From Acidimicrobiaceae bacterium (GTDB taxonomy: Bacteria > Actinomycetota > Acidimicrobiia > Acidimicrobiales > RAAP-2), in the NCBI GenBank assembly GCA_003152015.1, contig PLZF01000040.1:1-64000 (forward strand): a stretch of DNA of 64,000 nucleotides, in the 5' to 3' direction. A model generated the notes under the pieces. That model had not been told where the DNA came from and searched no databases. It saw only the letters and a program-made list of their open reading frames with translations. Numbering within the stretch: position 1 is the stretch's first letter; every line of letters starts with the position of its first letter. Below, in pieces: positions 31,891 through 59,018 of the stretch. The translations under genes were made by a program, and so were the position numbers.

Positions 31891-33099
31891 TTACCGAGTG
31901 GGTCGGACAGTTACCGACCAATAGAGCGTCTCGTACCGCTCAACCAGGCGCTTCATCGACCAACCCTCGGCTCTCGCCGACGCCGCCGCCAGCCGGTCAG
32001 GCCGCGGATCGAGTGCCGCTCCGGCCCCTCCGGCCTCACCGGGCGCCAGTGCGGATTCCAGCGCCTCGGCCAGTGCAAAACGATCGCCGGGTGGTACCAA
32101 GACCGCGTCGGCCCCCGCAGCATCTCGATAGCCATCGATATCGCTGGCCACCACCAGCGTGCGAGCCGCCATGGCCTCGAGGAGCACCATCCCGAACGAC
32201 TCTCCCCCCAGAGAAGGCGCGCACAGCACGTCGGCGGCGGCCAGCCTTTTCACCTTCTCCTCCTCGGAGAGAACCCCGAGCCAGTGCACGGTCGGCGACT
32301 CGGGGTACAAGCGGCGCAGCCACTCGGTCTCGGGCCCGTTGCCGGCAATCCATAAGATCGGGCTGTCGACGGAGGTGGCACCGACGGAGGTGGCAACAAC
32401 GGCACCCATTCTGCGTTCTGTTGCCTCGGCGCCGGTCAGGATTCCGAACCCGTCGAGCAGGACGCGCAACCCTTTGCGCTCTTCGTGCCGCCCGAGGAAC
32501 AAGATCGTGGGTCCTTGTTTGGGCCACCATTCAGCGTTCCGGAAACGGTCGATCTCCACGCCGTTGAACAGCACCTCATACTCGCCCCCTATCGCCTCCA
32601 CCGCCGTCTCGCGAGCCGCTTCCGAGACTGCACATCGGACCGCAAACCGTCGGGCCGCCAGCTTGGCCACCGGCCGGAGAGCCGAATAGAAGAAGCTGCC
32701 GCCGCTCCGGTGGAAGGTTGCTACCAATGGCGGGATGTCCCGAGCCACCAGTAGTCCGTAGGGCAGCCCGGGTGAAAACGGCTCGTGTACATGAACAACG
32801 TCAAACCGTCCCAACTGGAGAGCGCTGACTGCGTGGGCGACCGCCCTGGGGGACACTGACACCGGGGCCCGGGATCCGTTTGATGGAAGCGGCACCGACC
32901 GCCCCGATACCACCAGGTTGATATCGTCGGGAGCATCGGCCACGTTGTCGACGGGAGCGAACACGGTGACTTGGTGCCCACGCTCGTCAAGGACCCGGGC
33001 CAGGCCCACCACCTGCCCTTGGACGCCGCCTGGGCGGGACAGGCTGTAGGGACAGACCAGGGCGATGCGGAGTGTCGGCGATTGCTCCCCTTCCCTCAT
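31891..33099 (-). CDS. pimA: Phosphatidyl-myo-inositol mannosyltransferase (PimA type, GT4)
   Basis: Transfers the first mannose from GDP-mannose to phosphatidylinositol on the cytoplasmic membrane face. The 402-residue GT-B protein has the N-terminal SLSRPGGVQGQV glycine loop, VVHVHEPFSPGLP, and the C-terminal nucleotide-sugar site APSLGGESFGMVLLEAMA. ATG at 33099 overlaps the acyltransferase TGA. Directly downstream of acyltransferase and PIP synthase, as in Mycobacterium, which makes the PimA assignment firmer than the GT4 family alone. Confidence 0.9.
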   Translation of the reverse strand: MREGEQSPTLRIALVCPYSLSRPGGVQGQVVGLARVLDERGHQVTVFAPVDNVADAPDDINLVVSGRSVPLPSNGSRAPVSVSPRAVAHAVSALQLGRFDVVHVHEPFSPGLPYGLLVARDIPPLVATFHRSGGSFFYSALRPVAKLAARRFAVRCAVSEAARETAVEAIGGEYEVLFNGVEIDRFRNAEWWPKQGPTILFLGRHEERKGLRVLLDGFGILTGAEATERRMGAVVATSVGATSVDSPILWIAGNGPETEWLRRLYPESPTVHWLGVLSEEEKVKRLAAADVLCAPSLGGESFGMVLLEAMAARTLVVASDIDGYRDAAGADAVLVPPGDRFALAEALESALAPGEAGGAGAALDPRPDRLAAASARAEGWSMKRLVERYETLYWSVTVRPTR

Positions 33100-33992
33100 G
33101 GTTTCGTCGTCGGGCGGTCGACCGGCCACAGGGGTTGGAAGACATGCCACTGCTCGGGTGCCTGACGAATCAACCCTTCGAAACGGGTGGCGATCTCCTG
33201 GGTGATGCGTTGCACGTCGGAACGGAAGGAACCCGTCCGTTCGGTGTCGATGGGAGGCTGCACCAGAGCGAGATGGTCACGCCCCGGGCCGCTGTAGACG
33301 GCGGCGGTAAGGAGTGTGGCCCCTGTCCGCAGTGCCACGGAGGCCGGCCCGGCGGGCATGGTGGTGATTTCACCAAAAAACTCCACCTCAATGCCATTCT
33401 CCGTCAGGTCACGATCACAGAGGAGCCCGACCAGACCCCCTTGGCGCAGGGTGCGGAGAACGGCCCCACCCGAGTCGGGGCCAAGGGGCACGACCGTAAT
33501 CCCCATGGCGGCACGTTGGGCTACGAAGTAATCGAACAACTCCGGGGGTTCGATCCGTTCCGCCACCGCGGTCATCGGAAAGCCCTTGGCCGCGATGAAC
33601 GCCCCGCCGTACTCCCAACTGCCGACGTGGGGCAGGGCAACGACCACACCGTGACCTGCCGCCATTCCGTCCACCAAATGTTCGAACCCCTCGGTGACAA
33701 ACCGCTGCACCACCTCGGTCATCGGAGTACTCCCCAGCCGTGCCCCTTCCACCCAGTACCGGGCATAGGCACGGAACGCCCGTTTCGCCCACCGATCGAG
33801 GGATGCCTCGTCCACGTCTCCACCGAGGACCCGCCGGAGGTTGCGGGTGACCATGTCGCGGTGGTGGCGGCGCACAGAGAACATGACGTCGCCGATGGCC
33901 GCCGCCGCCGCCAAGGCTACCGGTTCGGGCAACGCACTCAGGGCGCGGCCCAGGTTCAAATAGAGATGGAAGACCAGCCGGCCCTTGTTCAC
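33096..33992 (-). CDS. Phosphatidylinositol mannoside acyltransferase (PatA-like)
   Basis: Lysophospholipid/lipid A-type acyltransferase of 298 residues. It contains the HX4E motif as LPHVGSWEYGG and a later GLLCDRDLTENGIEVEFFG. In mycobacteria the homologue at this locus acylates the mannose of PIM1/PIM2. GTG at 33992 is preceded by AGGAAA. It is flanked by PIP synthase and pimA, supporting the PIM role. Membrane association is peripheral through the N-terminal helix. Confidence 0.88.
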   Translation of the reverse strand: MNKGRLVFHLYLNLGRALSALPEPVALAAAAAIGDVMFSVRRHHRDMVTRNLRRVLGGDVDEASLDRWAKRAFRAYARYWVEGARLGSTPMTEVVQRFVTEGFEHLVDGMAAGHGVVVALPHVGSWEYGGAFIAAKGFPMTAVAERIEPPELFDYFVAQRAAMGITVVPLGPDSGGAVLRTLRQGGLVGLLCDRDLTENGIEVEFFGEITTMPAGPASVALRTGATLLTAAVYSGPGRDHLALVQPPIDTERTGSFRSDVQRITQEIATRFEGLIRQAPEQWHVFQPLWPVDRPTTKP

Positions 33993-34030: not shown

Positions 34031-34810
34031 TCAGCTACTGCGCCGGGCGGCGGCACGCTGGCGAATGCCCTGTCCTGCATGCCGTGCCCGCCACGTGCGA
34101 CCCGACCGACTGGACAGTTCGCCCTGCCGACGAGCCCGCCAACGGGATGGGGACCCGCTATTCCGGCGGCGTTCGCCCCGCATGGCGGTGCGGGTCCGAC
34201 GCGGGCGACGTACAGCCGACACCGACACAGGTGCTTCGGCCAGACGCCACACCCGGGCGAAGCGACCAATGGCGGTAACCATGGTGAGGGCGAGCATCAC
34301 CCACAGCACGGGGACCAGAAATGAAGCGGACAGGAGGCCGATGGCCAAGAGAATCATTCGCTCAGCCCGCTCCATCAGCCCACCCTTGGCCGAGATGCCC
34401 AACGATTCCGCCTTCGCCCTCTGATAGGAGACGAGCGAGGTGGCACCGAGCACTGCGAACGGAAGGAGCACCAGGTGCCCGGGATAGGTCGATACCAGAT
34501 ACCAGGCCACACCGCCCAGGAGCAATGCGTCCGCCACCCGGTCGGTGACCGAGTCGAAGAAGGCGCCTCGGACCGAAGAGGTTCCTGACGCCTTGGCCAC
34601 CGGACCATCCAGGAGGTCGTGAAGCCCGGTGAGGATAAGCAGCAGGATGCCCAGATGGAGATGGCCCGTGCCTATCGCCACCGCGGTGGCGGTTGCCGAA
34701 AGCAGACCTGTCGCCGTCAGAACGTCGGCAGTGACACCTAGCTGCTGCAACTTGCGACCAACCGGACCGGTTCCCCGGTCAACGGTGTCGCGCCAGCGGC
34801 CGTCGAACAT
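34031..34810 (-). CDS. pgsA1: CDP-alcohol phosphatidyltransferase, PIP synthase type
   Basis: Condenses CDP-diacylglycerol with inositol 3-phosphate to give phosphatidylinositol phosphate. The 259-residue protein has five to six membrane helices. The signature is spread over DLLDGPVAKASG and RGAFFDSVTDRVAD; the usual DGxxAR reads DGPVAK. ATG at 34810 has a perfect GGAGG seven bases upstream. The last 60 residues are a basic Arg/Ser/Gly-rich tail not needed for the family. The locus order matches M. tuberculosis pgsA1. The gene symbol rests on synteny. Confidence 0.87.
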   Translation of the reverse strand: MFDGRWRDTVDRGTGPVGRKLQQLGVTADVLTATGLLSATATAVAIGTGHLHLGILLLILTGLHDLLDGPVAKASGTSSVRGAFFDSVTDRVADALLLGGVAWYLVSTYPGHLVLLPFAVLGATSLVSYQRAKAESLGISAKGGLMERAERMILLAIGLLSASFLVPVLWVMLALTMVTAIGRFARVWRLAEAPVSVSAVRRPRRTRTAMRGERRRNSGSPSRWRARRQGELSSRSGRTWRARHAGQGIRQRAAARRSS

Positions 34811-34896
34811 GGCAATTCCTCCAGGGGTTTCCCTAACCTTACCATCTGCTTGCTTTAGTTGCGCGAATGGCATGCTCAAAGGTCCGACGCAAGCCA

Positions 34897-35448
34897 TCAG
34901 GCGGGCCATACGCCCCGGAGCCTTGCCCAACTGTCGGCCAGGGTCTCAGGCAAGACCCGGGCGCCGGCCACCGCCGTCATGAAGTTGGTATCCCCTGCCC
35001 ATCGCGGCACCGCGTGCAGATGGAGATGGCCTGGAATGCCTGCTCCGGCGGCCCGACCGAGGTTGGCCCCGATATTGACCCCCTCGGGAACGTAGGTTGC
35101 TTCGAGTGCGGCCACCCCGGCCCGAAGTGTCCCCCATAATTCGATGCCTTCGGCTTCGGTGAGATCCGCCATCGACCGGACGTGTCGGGATGGCATGACC
35201 AGCAGATGACCACTGGTATAGGGGTAGGCGTTGAGGACCGCGAAGGTGGTCTTCCCTCGCCAGAGCACGCAGTTCTCGTCCGAGGGAGGCCCGCTGGCCT
35301 CGATCCGGCAGAACACGCATCGGTTCGGATCATCGAGCGGGTGATCGACGAGCGTGTCCAGCTCTGTTTCGGTGCCGGCGTTGGCGGCACCGGGAATGGA
35401 GGATACGTACTCGGTGCGCCATCCGGCCCACAGATGTTCGAGACTCAC
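34897..35448 (-). CDS. HIT-family protein (Ap4A phosphorylase type)
   Basis: A 183-residue histidine-triad nucleotide hydrolase/phosphorylase. It shows the zinc-binding CVFCRI and the catalytic triad HLHLHAVPRW. In Mycobacterium the HIT gene between thrS and pgsA1 is an Ap4A phosphorylase; that role is inferred from position and the Cys pair. GTG at 35448 overlaps the thrS TGA, so coupled translation is likely. Confidence 0.9.
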   Translation of the reverse strand: MSLEHLWAGWRTEYVSSIPGAANAGTETELDTLVDHPLDDPNRCVFCRIEASGPPSDENCVLWRGKTTFAVLNAYPYTSGHLLVMPSRHVRSMADLTEAEGIELWGTLRAGVAALEATYVPEGVNIGANLGRAAGAGIPGHLHLHAVPRWAGDTNFMTAVAGARVLPETLADSWARLRGVWPA

Positions 35449-55407: not shown

Positions 55408-55938
55408 TCAGGCGCTCAGCCGGGCGGCGTGAGCCGCCGCCAGAGCGAGGGCCAAGATGATGAGGGCGACGTACCAGCGCCCGGTCAACTTCGGGATACG
55501 CAACGGGCTGACCATGAGCACGGCCAGCACCACGCCGGCGGCGCTGAGGGCGACCCGGAAGGCGGCGGGACCGAGCGGCCCATCGAGGAGCATTACAGCC
55601 ACGAAGCTGATGATGGCCAGGTCGGTTGGCAAGCCGGTGTATGTACCCGAGGCTGCATCGAGGCCGTGGACGTTGAAGTAACCGAGTCGCATAGCCGTGG
55701 CCACCGCGAGCAGCATGGCCACGGGCACGTACGCAACCCGGAAGTGGCCATACGACAAGATCACAATGCCGAGGGCAGCCCCGGCCGACACCATGTCGGC
55801 CAGCGAGTCGAGGCTGGCCCCGAATGCACCCTGCTCACCGGTGCGCCCCGACGTACGCTTGGCCACCGGGCCGTCGACCACGTCGAAGACAAAGGCGCCC
55901 ACCAGGCTGATGGCGGCCCCCGCGTGCGCCCCCCGCAC
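55408..55938 (-). CDS. CDP-alcohol phosphatidyltransferase (PssA-like), 5' end unresolved
   Basis: Integral membrane enzyme that swaps CMP for an alcohol. The family signature is FDVVDGPVAKRTSG followed by FGASLDSLADMVSAG, close to bacterial phosphatidylserine synthase. Read from GTG 55938 it has 176 residues and lacks the first helix. The same frame stays open upstream and encodes LADVANLLTLAGLAASILA, a typical first helix, but without any ATG, GTG or TTG before it overlaps the upstream gene. A one-base deletion after ATG 56054 would restore a normal start. The substrate may be the CDP-alcohol made by the neighbour (inference). Confidence 0.75.
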   Translation of the reverse strand: MRGAHAGAAISLVGAFVFDVVDGPVAKRTSGRTGEQGAFGASLDSLADMVSAGAALGIVILSYGHFRVAYVPVAMLLAVATAMRLGYFNVHGLDAASGTYTGLPTDLAIISFVAVMLLDGPLGPAAFRVALSAAGVVLAVLMVSPLRIPKLTGRWYVALIILALALAAAHAARLSA

Positions 55939-56072
55939 GGCCAGCGTGATCGCCAGGATGCTGGCTGCAAGCCCGGCGAGGGTGAGCAGATTAGCGACGT
56001 CGGCGAGATGAGACAGGATGGTGGGAGGCGGCGAAGCGGTGTCTCCCCGCCCATCGGCGGCCGGTGATCGGC

Positions 56073-57962
56073 TCAGGGCCGGTCCAGCCCGAGCTGGGAC
56101 AGGGCGTCGACGAGCCGCCGGTTGTCGGCCGCCGTGCGCGACGCGATGCGCAGGTAGCGATCAGCCTCGGGCATTGTCTTCGACGCGCAGTCCTTGATCA
56201 GGATGCCGTGTTCGACGTACAGCCTTCGAGCCAGCGCCGGTCCCGTTAGACCAGGTGTGGTGATCTTACAGAATACGAAGTTGGCGTCGGGCCGGAAGGG
56301 AGCCAAGCCCGGCAACTCGCACAGCGCGTGGTAGAGCTCCTGGCAGGTGTCGCGCACCACCTCACAACTGGCTGCGAACTCGCTCCGATAGCGGCCCACA
56401 TGGCGCAGGAAGGACTCCGCCATGCCGTTCAGGTTCCAGATGGGCAGATGGGAACGAACGGCAGCCGCGAAGCGCTGGTCGGCAGTGAGGAGGTAGCCGA
56501 TGCGCAGGCCGGCGATGCCGAACACCTTGCTCATGCTCTTGATGATGACCAGGTTGGGGTGGCTGTCAACGTCGCCCTCGACGCTGGCCGTCCGCCCGGC
56601 ACGGGAGAACTCTATGAATGACTCGTCCACGATCAGCCGGCACCCGTGCTCCGCTAGGCGGCGGGCCAGTTCCAGGACTGCCTGACGGTCGACGGAGAGG
56701 GCCGTCGGGTTGTTGGGGGTGACGAGGACGGCGACATTGGAGCCCGCCCGCCTAGCCGATTCGGCAAAGACGTCGAGGTCGAGGTCGAAGGTCACCGGAT
56801 CGAGCGCCACCCGGTCGAGCTGCTCGGGCCGCAAGACGTTCTCGTACTCGTTGAAGGAGGGGACGGGGATCGTCATCTTCTCGATGAAGTGCTGGCCCAG
56901 CACTTTGATCAGCTCAGCGGCCCCGTTGCCGACGACGATGTTCGCCGGGTGGGTTGCCGTCCATTGGGCGACGAGGCGGTCGATCTCTATCTGACCAACC
57001 GGGTAATTGGTGACGATGTCGGGTAGCTCATCGCGGAGGACGTTGAGCATGGAGGGCGGAGGGAAGTACAGGTTGTACAAGTAGGAATGGTCAACGACGC
57101 CATAACGCCAGTGCGACCCATGCAGCGACTGGATGCGGTCGAACTGGTGTTCACGGCTCAGGAATATGAACTCGGCCATCTCGAGGTCGCGGTAATCGTC
57201 GAGCTCGTACCACCGGCTGGTCGACACGTCGACCGCGACGAGATCCGCTAACGAGCCGTCGGCCACGAGGTCGCGGAACACCGTCTCGTAGTAGGCCTGC
57301 ACGTTGCCGCTATCCACTTGGCGGCACAGTTCGGGCAAGATCTTGGTGCGCAGCGCCTCGGCCCGCAGCAGATAGATGTTGACCGTCTTCTGAGCATCAT
57401 TGCCGTTGAGGTGCCCGTCTAGCTCGGCGCCCAGGATGAAGGCAGTCACGAAGCCGCTGTCGTCGCGACACACGACGGTTCCCGAGAAGTTGGCGTTGTT
57501 AGGGGCCACGGCCATACTGCTGCCGATCTGCTCGCGCAGGCGCATCACAACGTCGCGGTCGAAGAGGACGTCGCCCTCGAGCAAGAGGATGTCCTCGTCG
57601 CAGTATTGGCGGGCGTCCCACAGCGAGCGAATGTTGTTGGTGGTGTCGAACAATGGGGCATCGACGTACTCGATATCGATCCCGGCGAAATTGTGTCCTA
57701 CCCTCCTGCGGACCTGGGCCGCTTCGTGGCCGACCACGATGATGGCTTCGGTCACCCCCGCGGAGGCCAGTACCCGCAGCGAGGAGAACAAGATCGGGAC
57801 CCCGTTCACCTCGACGAGGCACTTGGGTACGTCGGTAGTGAGGGGCCGCATGCGCTGGCCAAGGCCGGCGGCGAGGATGAGCGCTCGGCGTACGGGCAGC
57901 GACCCCGGGGAAACGTTCCCCGGGACGGGCTCCATCGCTCCAACCCCCACCGTCTGCGTCAC
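56073..57962 (-). CDS. LicC-like cytidylyltransferase fused to a PLP aminotransferase/decarboxylase
   Basis: A 629-residue fusion. The N-terminal nucleotidyltransferase (about 25-250) has LILAAGLGQRMRPLT, DVPKCLVEVNG, TTNNIRSLWDAR and DILLLEGDVLFD, a pattern of phosphocholine/phosphonate cytidylyltransferases (LicC, PntC). The C-terminal domain (about 280-629) is a fold-type I enzyme near HisC/CobD: VGNGAAELIKVLG, VTPNNPTALS, VDESFIEFS, and the PLP Lys in IKSMSKVFGIAGLRIGY. Inferred activity: make an amino-alcohol (or aminophosphonate) phosphate and activate it with CTP. GTG at 57962 has GGAGG six bases upstream. Adjacent CDP-alcohol transferase and methyltransferase fit a lipid head-group pathway. 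Confidence 0.82.
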   Translation of the reverse strand: MTQTVGVGAMEPVPGNVSPGSLPVRRALILAAGLGQRMRPLTTDVPKCLVEVNGVPILFSSLRVLASAGVTEAIIVVGHEAAQVRRRVGHNFAGIDIEYVDAPLFDTTNNIRSLWDARQYCDEDILLLEGDVLFDRDVVMRLREQIGSSMAVAPNNANFSGTVVCRDDSGFVTAFILGAELDGHLNGNDAQKTVNIYLLRAEALRTKILPELCRQVDSGNVQAYYETVFRDLVADGSLADLVAVDVSTSRWYELDDYRDLEMAEFIFLSREHQFDRIQSLHGSHWRYGVVDHSYLYNLYFPPPSMLNVLRDELPDIVTNYPVGQIEIDRLVAQWTATHPANIVVGNGAAELIKVLGQHFIEKMTIPVPSFNEYENVLRPEQLDRVALDPVTFDLDLDVFAESARRAGSNVAVLVTPNNPTALSVDRQAVLELARRLAEHGCRLIVDESFIEFSRAGRTASVEGDVDSHPNLVIIKSMSKVFGIAGLRIGYLLTADQRFAAAVRSHLPIWNLNGMAESFLRHVGRYRSEFAASCEVVRDTCQELYHALCELPGLAPFRPDANFVFCKITTPGLTGPALARRLYVEHGILIKDCASKTMPEADRYLRIASRTAADNRRLVDALSQLGLDRP

Positions 57963-58175
57963 TGCAAGCCTCCAGGCCTTTCGATGGCTGCGTTGTAGTC
58001 CGATGCGCAGCCAGGTGAATGACTCTCGAGGTACGGCCTAGAACCGTCAGCGTCGAAAGACGAGAGAACCTCTGTTGATGGCTCAGATCAAATGTAGCAT
58101 TTCTTGTGGACTTCACCCTGCGTTCGCAGACCGAGGGGCTGTGAGACCAGGTCATCAACGCTAGGATTGGCCCAG

Positions 58176-59018
58176 ATGTCGATTTGTCGAAGTGAGGGGC
58201 ACCGCCTCGACTACGAGCTGGTGCGTTCCTTCTGGGAGGAAGCTGCCCACGAGGCCGAATCGGCTTCGTACATGGCCCATGAGCAGGGCTTGCCCCGCGG
58301 CTGCGTCGAGCATCGCTTCGCGCTCGAGCGGGCGGTGGTCGACCGGTGGTTCGCCGGGCTGGGCCCCACCGCCTCGGTACTCGACGTCGGGTGCGGTGCC
58401 GGGGCGTGGACGGAGTTGTTCGCCCAGCGCTACGGGCGAGTCGTCGGGGTGGACGCAAGCGCCGGCATGCTGGCCGCAGCCCGGCGGCGCCTGGCCGGGC
58501 AGGGCAACGTCGAACTGGTGCGAGGGGATGCCCTAACTGTGGTCCTCAACGGCGAGTTCCAGGGCGTCCTGCTCGGGGGGCTGCTGATGTACCTCGATCG
58601 AGCCGACGCTGTGGCACTGCTCGTCCGCCTCGGCCAGCTGGCACCGAGGGGCCGAATCATCCTGCGCGAATCGGGGATTCGCTCCGGGGTAGAGGTGCAG
58701 ACAGGCACGTACCAGGTGGTGTACCGGTCACTGCAGGAGTACGAAGCCATGGCTGCCGAGGCCGCCCTGCGCGTCGTTGCTGTCGAGCGCAACCGGGGAT
58801 ACGCCCACATGGAGGTCACCGTTGCGCTGGTCAACTTGGCTCGGCGCTTGCCGCCATTCGCCCGGAGTGATGCGGCCGCAGTTGGTGGCCCGCTGTGGCG
58901 TTTCCTGCGGGCCACGGCGCCCGTCTCCCTCGAGCTGGTCCCCCGAGCCATCGAGGCCGTCGGCCTCGACTGGCCTCATCTGACCAACCACTTCCTTCTC
59001 CTCGAGGCGGGCCCGTGA
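58176..59018 (+). CDS. Class I SAM-dependent methyltransferase
   Basis: A 280-residue methyltransferase. SAM motif I is VLDVGCGAGAWTELFAQR, with VVGVDASAGML and VLLGGLLMYLDRADAV. The acceptor is unknown. It is divergent from the cytidylyltransferase fusion across 213 bp, so it may N-methylate an amino head group or its lipid (inference). ATG at 58176 lies eight bases after TAGGAT. The C-terminal third (LPPFARSDAAAVGGPLWRFL onward) is family-specific. Confidence 0.82.
   Translation: MSICRSEGHRLDYELVRSFWEEAAHEAESASYMAHEQGLPRGCVEHRFALERAVVDRWFAGLGPTASVLDVGCGAGAWTELFAQRYGRVVGVDASAGMLAAARRRLAGQGNVELVRGDALTVVLNGEFQGVLLGGLLMYLDRADAVALLVRLGQLAPRGRIILRESGIRSGVEVQTGTYQVVYRSLQEYEAMAAEAALRVVAVERNRGYAHMEVTVALVNLARRLPPFARSDAAAVGGPLWRFLRATAPVSLELVPRAIEAVGLDWPHLTNHFLLLEAGP

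Follow-up and report, generated by a model that had tools for sequence, protein, structure and literature searches.

A three-gene cassette at positions 55408-59018 of a 64,000-nucleotide stretch of the genome of a soil Acidimicrobiaceae bacterium (contig PLZF01000040.1, positions 1 to 64,000; the window) may encode a phosphatidylserine-independent, Kennedy-like head-group route from phosphoserine to phosphatidylethanolamine (PE) or its N-methylated forms, a reading of the sequence to which we give a probability of about 0.55. The cassette consists of a gene for a cytidylyltransferase fused to a pyridoxal phosphate (PLP) enzyme, a gene for a CDP-alcohol phosphatidyltransferase on the same, reverse strand, and a diverging methyltransferase gene on the forward strand. 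The fusion would convert L-phosphoserine and CTP to CDP-ethanolamine through cytidylylation and PLP-dependent decarboxylation, with cytidylylation probably preceding decarboxylation, as in the antibiotic biosynthesis enzyme FrbH. The phosphatidyltransferase would then move phosphoethanolamine from CDP-ethanolamine to diacylglycerol, giving PE, and the methyltransferase would add N-methyl groups to the head group, acting on its phospho-, CDP- or lipid-linked form. The narrower proposal, that the fusion yields a CDP-amino-alcohol by cytidylylation and decarboxylation, is likely. The window belongs to a 69-kb contig of a 3.57-Mb metagenome-assembled genome (MAG), whose nearest named relatives are MAGs of Acidimicrobiaceae and Acidimicrobiales.

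The fusion, the phosphatidyltransferase and the methyltransferase are one unit. The same order, with the methyltransferase diverging from the fusion and the phosphatidyltransferase following the fusion, is common to loci L025-L032 at protein identities of 57-97% (lowest values 61% for the methyltransferase, 62% for the fusion and 57% for the phosphatidyltransferase; in L028 the methyltransferase is interrupted at the contig end). Each gene has a ratio of nonsynonymous to synonymous substitution rates (dN/dS) of 0.13-0.31, consistent with purifying selection, and because the order is kept as well, the trio is not a chance arrangement. An initial annotation of the sequence had claimed three adjacent genes fitting one route and had expected them to co-occur in other genomes; both the adjacency and the co-occurrence were found. 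In another actinobacterium (L084), the cytidylyltransferase, the PLP enzyme, the phosphatidyltransferase and the methyltransferase are four unfused, co-directional genes, 37-49% identical to those of the window. Among 395 genomes of the class, at the thresholds applied, relatives of the methyltransferase and phosphatidyltransferase were confined to the two genomes whose fusions are the closest. This rare and patchy distribution suggests horizontal movement of the cassette. In one of the conserved loci (L031:4993-6823, identical to L008 of genome G008), the fusion frame is broken near residues 484-500 by a frameshift or an assembly error.

Domain identities of the fusion protein

The N-terminal half of the fusion matched Pfam NTP_transf_3 at residues 27-155 (47.6 bits). 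In a profile search with the cytidylyltransferase domain, LicC ranked first (93.8 bits) and PntC next (80.4 bits), both spanning the full domain, and sugar enzymes ranked below them with a partial match to the N-terminal part (73.8 bits). The domain is thus of the LicC/PntC type, with a full-length match above the sugar nucleotidyltransferases, among which it could otherwise have clustered. The cytidylyltransferase motif GLGQRMRPLTTDVPK is present, with invariant R37 and K47 (GXGxR...PK motif, PF12804-type). The positions that contact the amine, as mapped by alignment, are both Glu (E129 and E226). In the aminoethylphosphonate-specific Tde-PntC the amine contacts are likewise Glu (E104/E196), and the choline-specific LicC has Asp there (PMC6697681). 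The Glu pair fits a small primary amine, with ethanolamine phosphate and aminoethylphosphonate not separable by it. As a candidate marker of phosphate versus phosphonate substrates, TNN (LicC-like, in the window) against TGS (in PntC and PepM-linked rhizobial enzymes) was dropped, because the fusion of L085, from a PepM-bearing genome, also carries TNN.

The C-terminal half matched Aminotran_1_2 at residues 323-621 (106.6 bits), and its PDB matches agree that the PLP domain is of class I/II, as first annotated, rather than of class V as in PntC fusions. Its best equivalog model was CobD (TIGR01140, 185.8 bits, below the cutoff of 290.55), with HisC at 138.1 bits. The top PDB match was 6oux (132.5 bits; CobD 97.1), which in turn matches over its full length (878.7 bits) the Sulfurospirillum protein annotated as a norcobamide serine-O-phosphate decarboxylase (L090); among characterised enzymes, this is the closest to the domain. 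Alignment places the Schiff-base lysine at K479. In the tree, a branch with support 97/89.6 sets the fusion family and the L090/6oux enzyme apart from the other sequences, and a grouping of the family with HisC was rejected (approximately unbiased test, p-AU 0.00013). Of the "HisC/CobD-type" label originally given, the CobD-like part therefore stands, on TIGR01140 and the 6oux clade, and the HisC part does not. Membership of this clade does not alone fix the substrate, because PepM-linked rhizobial enzymes fall in it too.

A fusion of this type is not new, although the initial annotation put the pathway forward as a candidate undescribed one. As later papers describe it, FrbH of the FR-900098 pathway in Streptomyces rubellomurinus is a fusion of a cytidylyltransferase to a PLP decarboxylase (PMC8976061) that cytidylylates, then decarboxylates 2-amino-4-phosphonobutyrate (PMC8976061, PMC6697681). 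This substrate differs from phosphoserine in having CH2 where the latter has its bridging oxygen (PMC10141581), so an FrbH-like enzyme acting on phosphoserine would give CDP-ethanolamine.

Phosphatidyltransferase and methyltransferase

The phosphatidyltransferase matched CDP-OH_P_transf (PF01066) at 40.4 bits against a cutoff of 22, and carries the DxxDGxxA...GxxxDxxxD motif, with a spacer after the Ala that is longer than canonical. Its conserved N-terminus has no ATG, GTG or TTG in frame; a CTG at 56076 overlaps the fusion stop by 4 nt (CTGA). Such an NTGA overlap was present in 8/8 loci compared, as CTGA in three (the window included), GTGA in three and TTGA in two. Because an NTG codon overlaps the fusion stop across relatives, the gene most likely extends over 55408-56076 and not 55408-55938, and it is most likely translationally coupled to the fusion. 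The nearest lipid enzymes are PssA and archaetidylserine synthase, and the pssA model TIGR00473 scored 69.5 bits, under its cutoff of 107. The "PssA-like" label first applied is therefore right as to the CDP-alcohol phosphatidyltransferase family and loose as to PssA proper. The window genome has four CDP-alcohol transferases (the cassette enzyme, a cardiolipin-synthase/PgsA-like, a PgsA-like and an inositol-phosphate-type protein), none of which reached the pssA cutoff. A second CDP-alcohol transferase of the window, at 34031-34930 on the reverse strand, is of the archaetidylinositol-phosphate/phosphatidylinositol-phosphate synthase type and lies near a glycosyltransferase-like open reading frame (31891-33150); the two look like ordinary actinobacterial inositol-lipid genes.

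For the methyltransferase, Methyltransf_25 was matched (63.5 bits) in the forward frame 58104-59018, and conservation in an alignment of seven sequences favours a start at the ATG of 58176. The top PDB sequence match was 5wp5, a plant phosphomethylethanolamine N-methyltransferase (PMT), at a modest 40.5 bits over the S-adenosylmethionine (SAM)-binding region. A predicted model (pLDDT 77.5) matched PMT with Z 19.6 (root-mean-square deviation 2.8, 187 residues aligned) and protein N-terminal methyltransferases with Z 20-21; many class I methyltransferases tie, and no substrate was singled out by the fold search. Methyltransferases adjoin such fusions elsewhere, in the LicD clusters L068 and L091, in L085 and near L083; their presence in several settings suggests head-group methylation, but most of them are from a different methyltransferase subgroup.

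Table 1. Coordinates of the cassette features in the window and of two loci from a sister lineage
Feature	Position	Strand	Evidence
Fusion, cytidylyltransferase + PLP decarboxylase-like, 629 aa	56073..57962	-	Pfam/NCBIfam, PDB sequence matches, tree, 8 conserved loci, start context
Fusion start	GTG; GGAGG at 57969-57973	-	Start context
LicC/PntC-type cytidylyltransferase domain, residues about 24-270	57153..57893	-	LicC/PntC profile matches, residue invariance
CobD/serine-O-phosphate-decarboxylase-like PLP domain, residues about 277-624	56091..57134	-	PDB 6oux match, tree clade, alignment
CDP-alcohol phosphatidyltransferase, 222 aa, probable CTG start	55408..56076	-	PF01066, NTGA overlap, catalytic-motif alignment, NCBIfam
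CTGA overlap of fusion stop and phosphatidyltransferase start, suggesting translational coupling	56073..56076	-	NTGA in 8/8 loci compared
Class I SAM methyltransferase, diverging; frame open from TTG 58104	58176..59018	+	Pfam, alignment of 7, PDB matches, co-occurrence
L079 and L080 fusion + LicD	L079:2623-5425; L080:7572-10392		Sister-lineage loci

Substrate, acceptor and rival explanations

Phosphoserine, the proposed substrate, is a near-universal metabolite. No PepM above the cutoff of 319.55 was found in the trio genomes searched (G000, G001, G002, G008, G417) or in the LicD-lineage genomes, the best match in G000 scoring 24.9 bits and lacking the EDKxxxxxNS motif; with no PepM in the genome, a phosphonate substrate is unlikely here. 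Phosphatidylserine decarboxylase (Psd) was not found in the window genome either, so that, with the pssA cutoff unreached, the ordinary PE route was not found there. Psd is missing in 197/198 genomes searched of the class, Acidimicrobiia; because the absence is class-wide, it gives no correlation with the cassette and was discarded as a correlate. G008 is the sole trio genome with a Psd.

In a sister lineage, the fusions of L079 and L080 (61% identical) are followed by a LicD-family gene, with no relative of the phosphatidyltransferase or methyltransferase adjacent. LicD enzymes move phosphocholine from CDP-choline. Replacement of the phosphatidyltransferase by LicD therefore argues that the fusion product is a CDP-amino-alcohol, which the phosphatidyltransferase would use; from this replacement and the gene linkage we infer diacylglycerol as its acceptor. 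Beside L079 stands an aminotransferase that shares just 24-27% identity with the PepM-linked ones, too little to indicate a phosphonate route on its own. A 121-kb viral contig (IMGVR_UViG_3300023109_003600, L091:7998-11282) carries a fusion, then a LicD-like gene (a weak match) and a methyltransferase, a set that suggests a virus-encoded decoration of the phosphoethanolamine type; cytidylyltransferase-PLP fusions were also present on the viral contigs L092 and L093.

Several points weigh against the phosphoserine-to-PE reading. The named families nearest to the phosphatidyltransferase take a CDP-lipid and serine, not a CDP-alcohol and diacylglycerol; the 5wp5 match is restricted to the SAM-binding region, in a fold where many N- and O-methyltransferases tie; and related rhizobial genes adjoin PepM, so the family is not limited to phosphate esters. 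In addition, the predicted structure of the fusion (pLDDT 45, from 8 close sequences) was set aside, and the host is a MAG with a completeness of 94.3%.

The product might not be a membrane lipid: CDP-ethanolamine would be made, with the phosphatidyltransferase acceptor being a sugar, a polyol or another small molecule, or else the genes would serve a secreted product, for instance a fosfocytocin-like nucleotide antibiotic. Some CDP-alcohol transferases do take soluble acceptors (di-myo-inositol phosphate phosphate synthase), and homologous fusions lie in natural-product-like clusters of Priestia and of Erwinia and Rahnella. We nevertheless consider this unlikely, because the phosphatidyltransferase is closest to PssA and archaetidylserine synthase, both lipid enzymes, and because the neighbouring genes that were examined included nothing recognisable as an N-hydroxylase, an acetyltransferase, a DXR paralogue or a transporter. 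The Priestia megaterium cluster on pBM700 (L065:3552-11656, record 143159-151263) contains an FrbH-type fusion, an unannotated CDP-alcohol transferase, a DXR paralogue, two ATP-grasp genes, a lysine/ornithine-N-monooxygenase-like protein and an AAC(3)-like acetyltransferase, with PepM unannotated within 29 kb. It is a candidate for synthesis of a DXR inhibitor of the fosfoxacin/fosfocytocin type from phosphoserine, with the DXR paralogue for self-protection; fosfoxacin is the natural phosphate congener of fosmidomycin (PMC9782300). A related cluster on plasmids of Erwinia rhapontici and Rahnella sikkimica (L062:6722-17714 and L063) comprises an oxidoreductase-like protein, the fusion, a CDP-alcohol transferase, HAD, an AAC(3)-like/HAD-IIIC protein, SDR, ATP-grasp and MFS.

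Two other readings change the substrate. The PLP domain could, in the manner of CobD, decarboxylate phosphothreonine or a different phospho-amino acid, giving an aminopropanol-like head group rather than ethanolamine; the best NCBIfam model is indeed the threonine-phosphate decarboxylase, but its score stays under the cutoff, and in the tree the domain falls in with the serine-O-phosphate enzyme instead of the CobD rows tested, which makes this option somewhat less probable still. Alternatively, the substrate of the fusion could be phosphonoalanine, supplied by PepM together with an aminotransferase, and its product CMP-aminoethylphosphonate, for transfer to lipid by the phosphatidyltransferase. 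On rhizobial plasmids, unfused relatives with 37-41% identity do occur together with PepM and a CDP-alcohol transferase, an aminotransferase lying adjacent in two of three; PepM lies about 12 kb from the fusion of G503, and the Glu pair is as in aminoethylphosphonate-specific PntC. The PepM results given above, including the match in G000 without its motif, stand against this, and we regard it as improbable. The phosphonolipid option of the initial annotation is thus disfavoured here, with its counterpart in the rhizobial relatives: on these plasmids of root-nodule isolates (L059, L060 and L061), PepM, a LicC-like cytidylyltransferase, a CDP-alcohol transferase and a CobD-like enzyme, with an aminotransferase in L059 and L060, probably form a phosphonoalanine-based phosphonolipid pathway, the phosphonate counterpart of the trio. 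Finally, some related records bear the automatic name histidinol-phosphate transaminase, as would suit a HisC-like aminotransferase, a sugar nucleotidyltransferase and a PssA that are neighbours by accident; with HisC placement rejected, LicC/PntC the best matches, the pssA cutoff unreached, linkage conserved and co-occurrence tight, this is very improbable.

Comparison with known systems

For the proposed Kennedy-like route, the domain identities, linkage and co-occurrence hold, and the claim of novelty gives way for the fusion type, given FrbH. No description of a bacterial route from phosphoserine through CDP-ethanolamine to lipid was found in the open-access literature, subscription papers being mostly outside this scope. 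To our knowledge, bacteria are not known to run the Kennedy pathway from scratch. If the phosphoserine-to-PE reading is true, some Psd-less bacteria would build ethanolamine-type lipids de novo along eukaryote-like lines, a single bifunctional enzyme standing in for scavenging and kinase steps. Acidimicrobiia would have a testable source of PE or methylated PE, and one enzyme type would be seen to supply CDP-ethanolamine to lipids, glycans and antibiotics. A wider picture, in which the complete pathway to (N-methylated) PE is joined to a portable CDP-ethanolamine synthase that also feeds LicD glycans, viral decoration and fosfocytocin-type antibiotics, is more tentative, with somewhat less than an even chance.

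As in FrbH, likened here by architecture only, an N-terminal cytidylyltransferase precedes a C-terminal decarboxylase domain; unlike FrbH, which serves a PepM phosphonate antibiotic pathway, the fusion lies in a genome without PepM and is accompanied by the phosphatidyltransferase and methyltransferase. The PntC-AEPT fusion (Tde1415, 6pd1) likewise joins a cytidylyltransferase to a PLP enzyme and has a Glu pair at the amine, but its PLP partner is an aminotransferase of class V and it is clustered with PepM, whereas the PLP domain in the window is of class I/II with no PepM. The PLP clade is shared with the Sulfurospirillum serine-O-phosphate decarboxylase (6oux), and Campylobacter Cj1436 is described as converting phosphoserine to ethanolamine phosphate (PMC12409886); unlike the fusion, the former (norcobamide synthesis) and the latter (capsule synthesis, likened by its described chemistry) have no cytidylyltransferase fused. 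The route through PssA and Psd is echoed only in the distantly PssA-like phosphatidyltransferase, in a genome with neither Psd nor a protein above the pssA cutoff. In Treponema denticola, LicCA and CPT similarly pair a LicC-type cytidylyltransferase with a CDP-alcohol transferase, CPT making phospholipid from a CDP-amino-alcohol and diacylglycerol (PMC8590670, PMC6805115). In that pathway, choline comes from scavenging and LicA phosphorylates it, whereas the decarboxylase fused here would allow de novo supply from phosphoserine. The parts are each of a known kind, and it is their combination that may be new.

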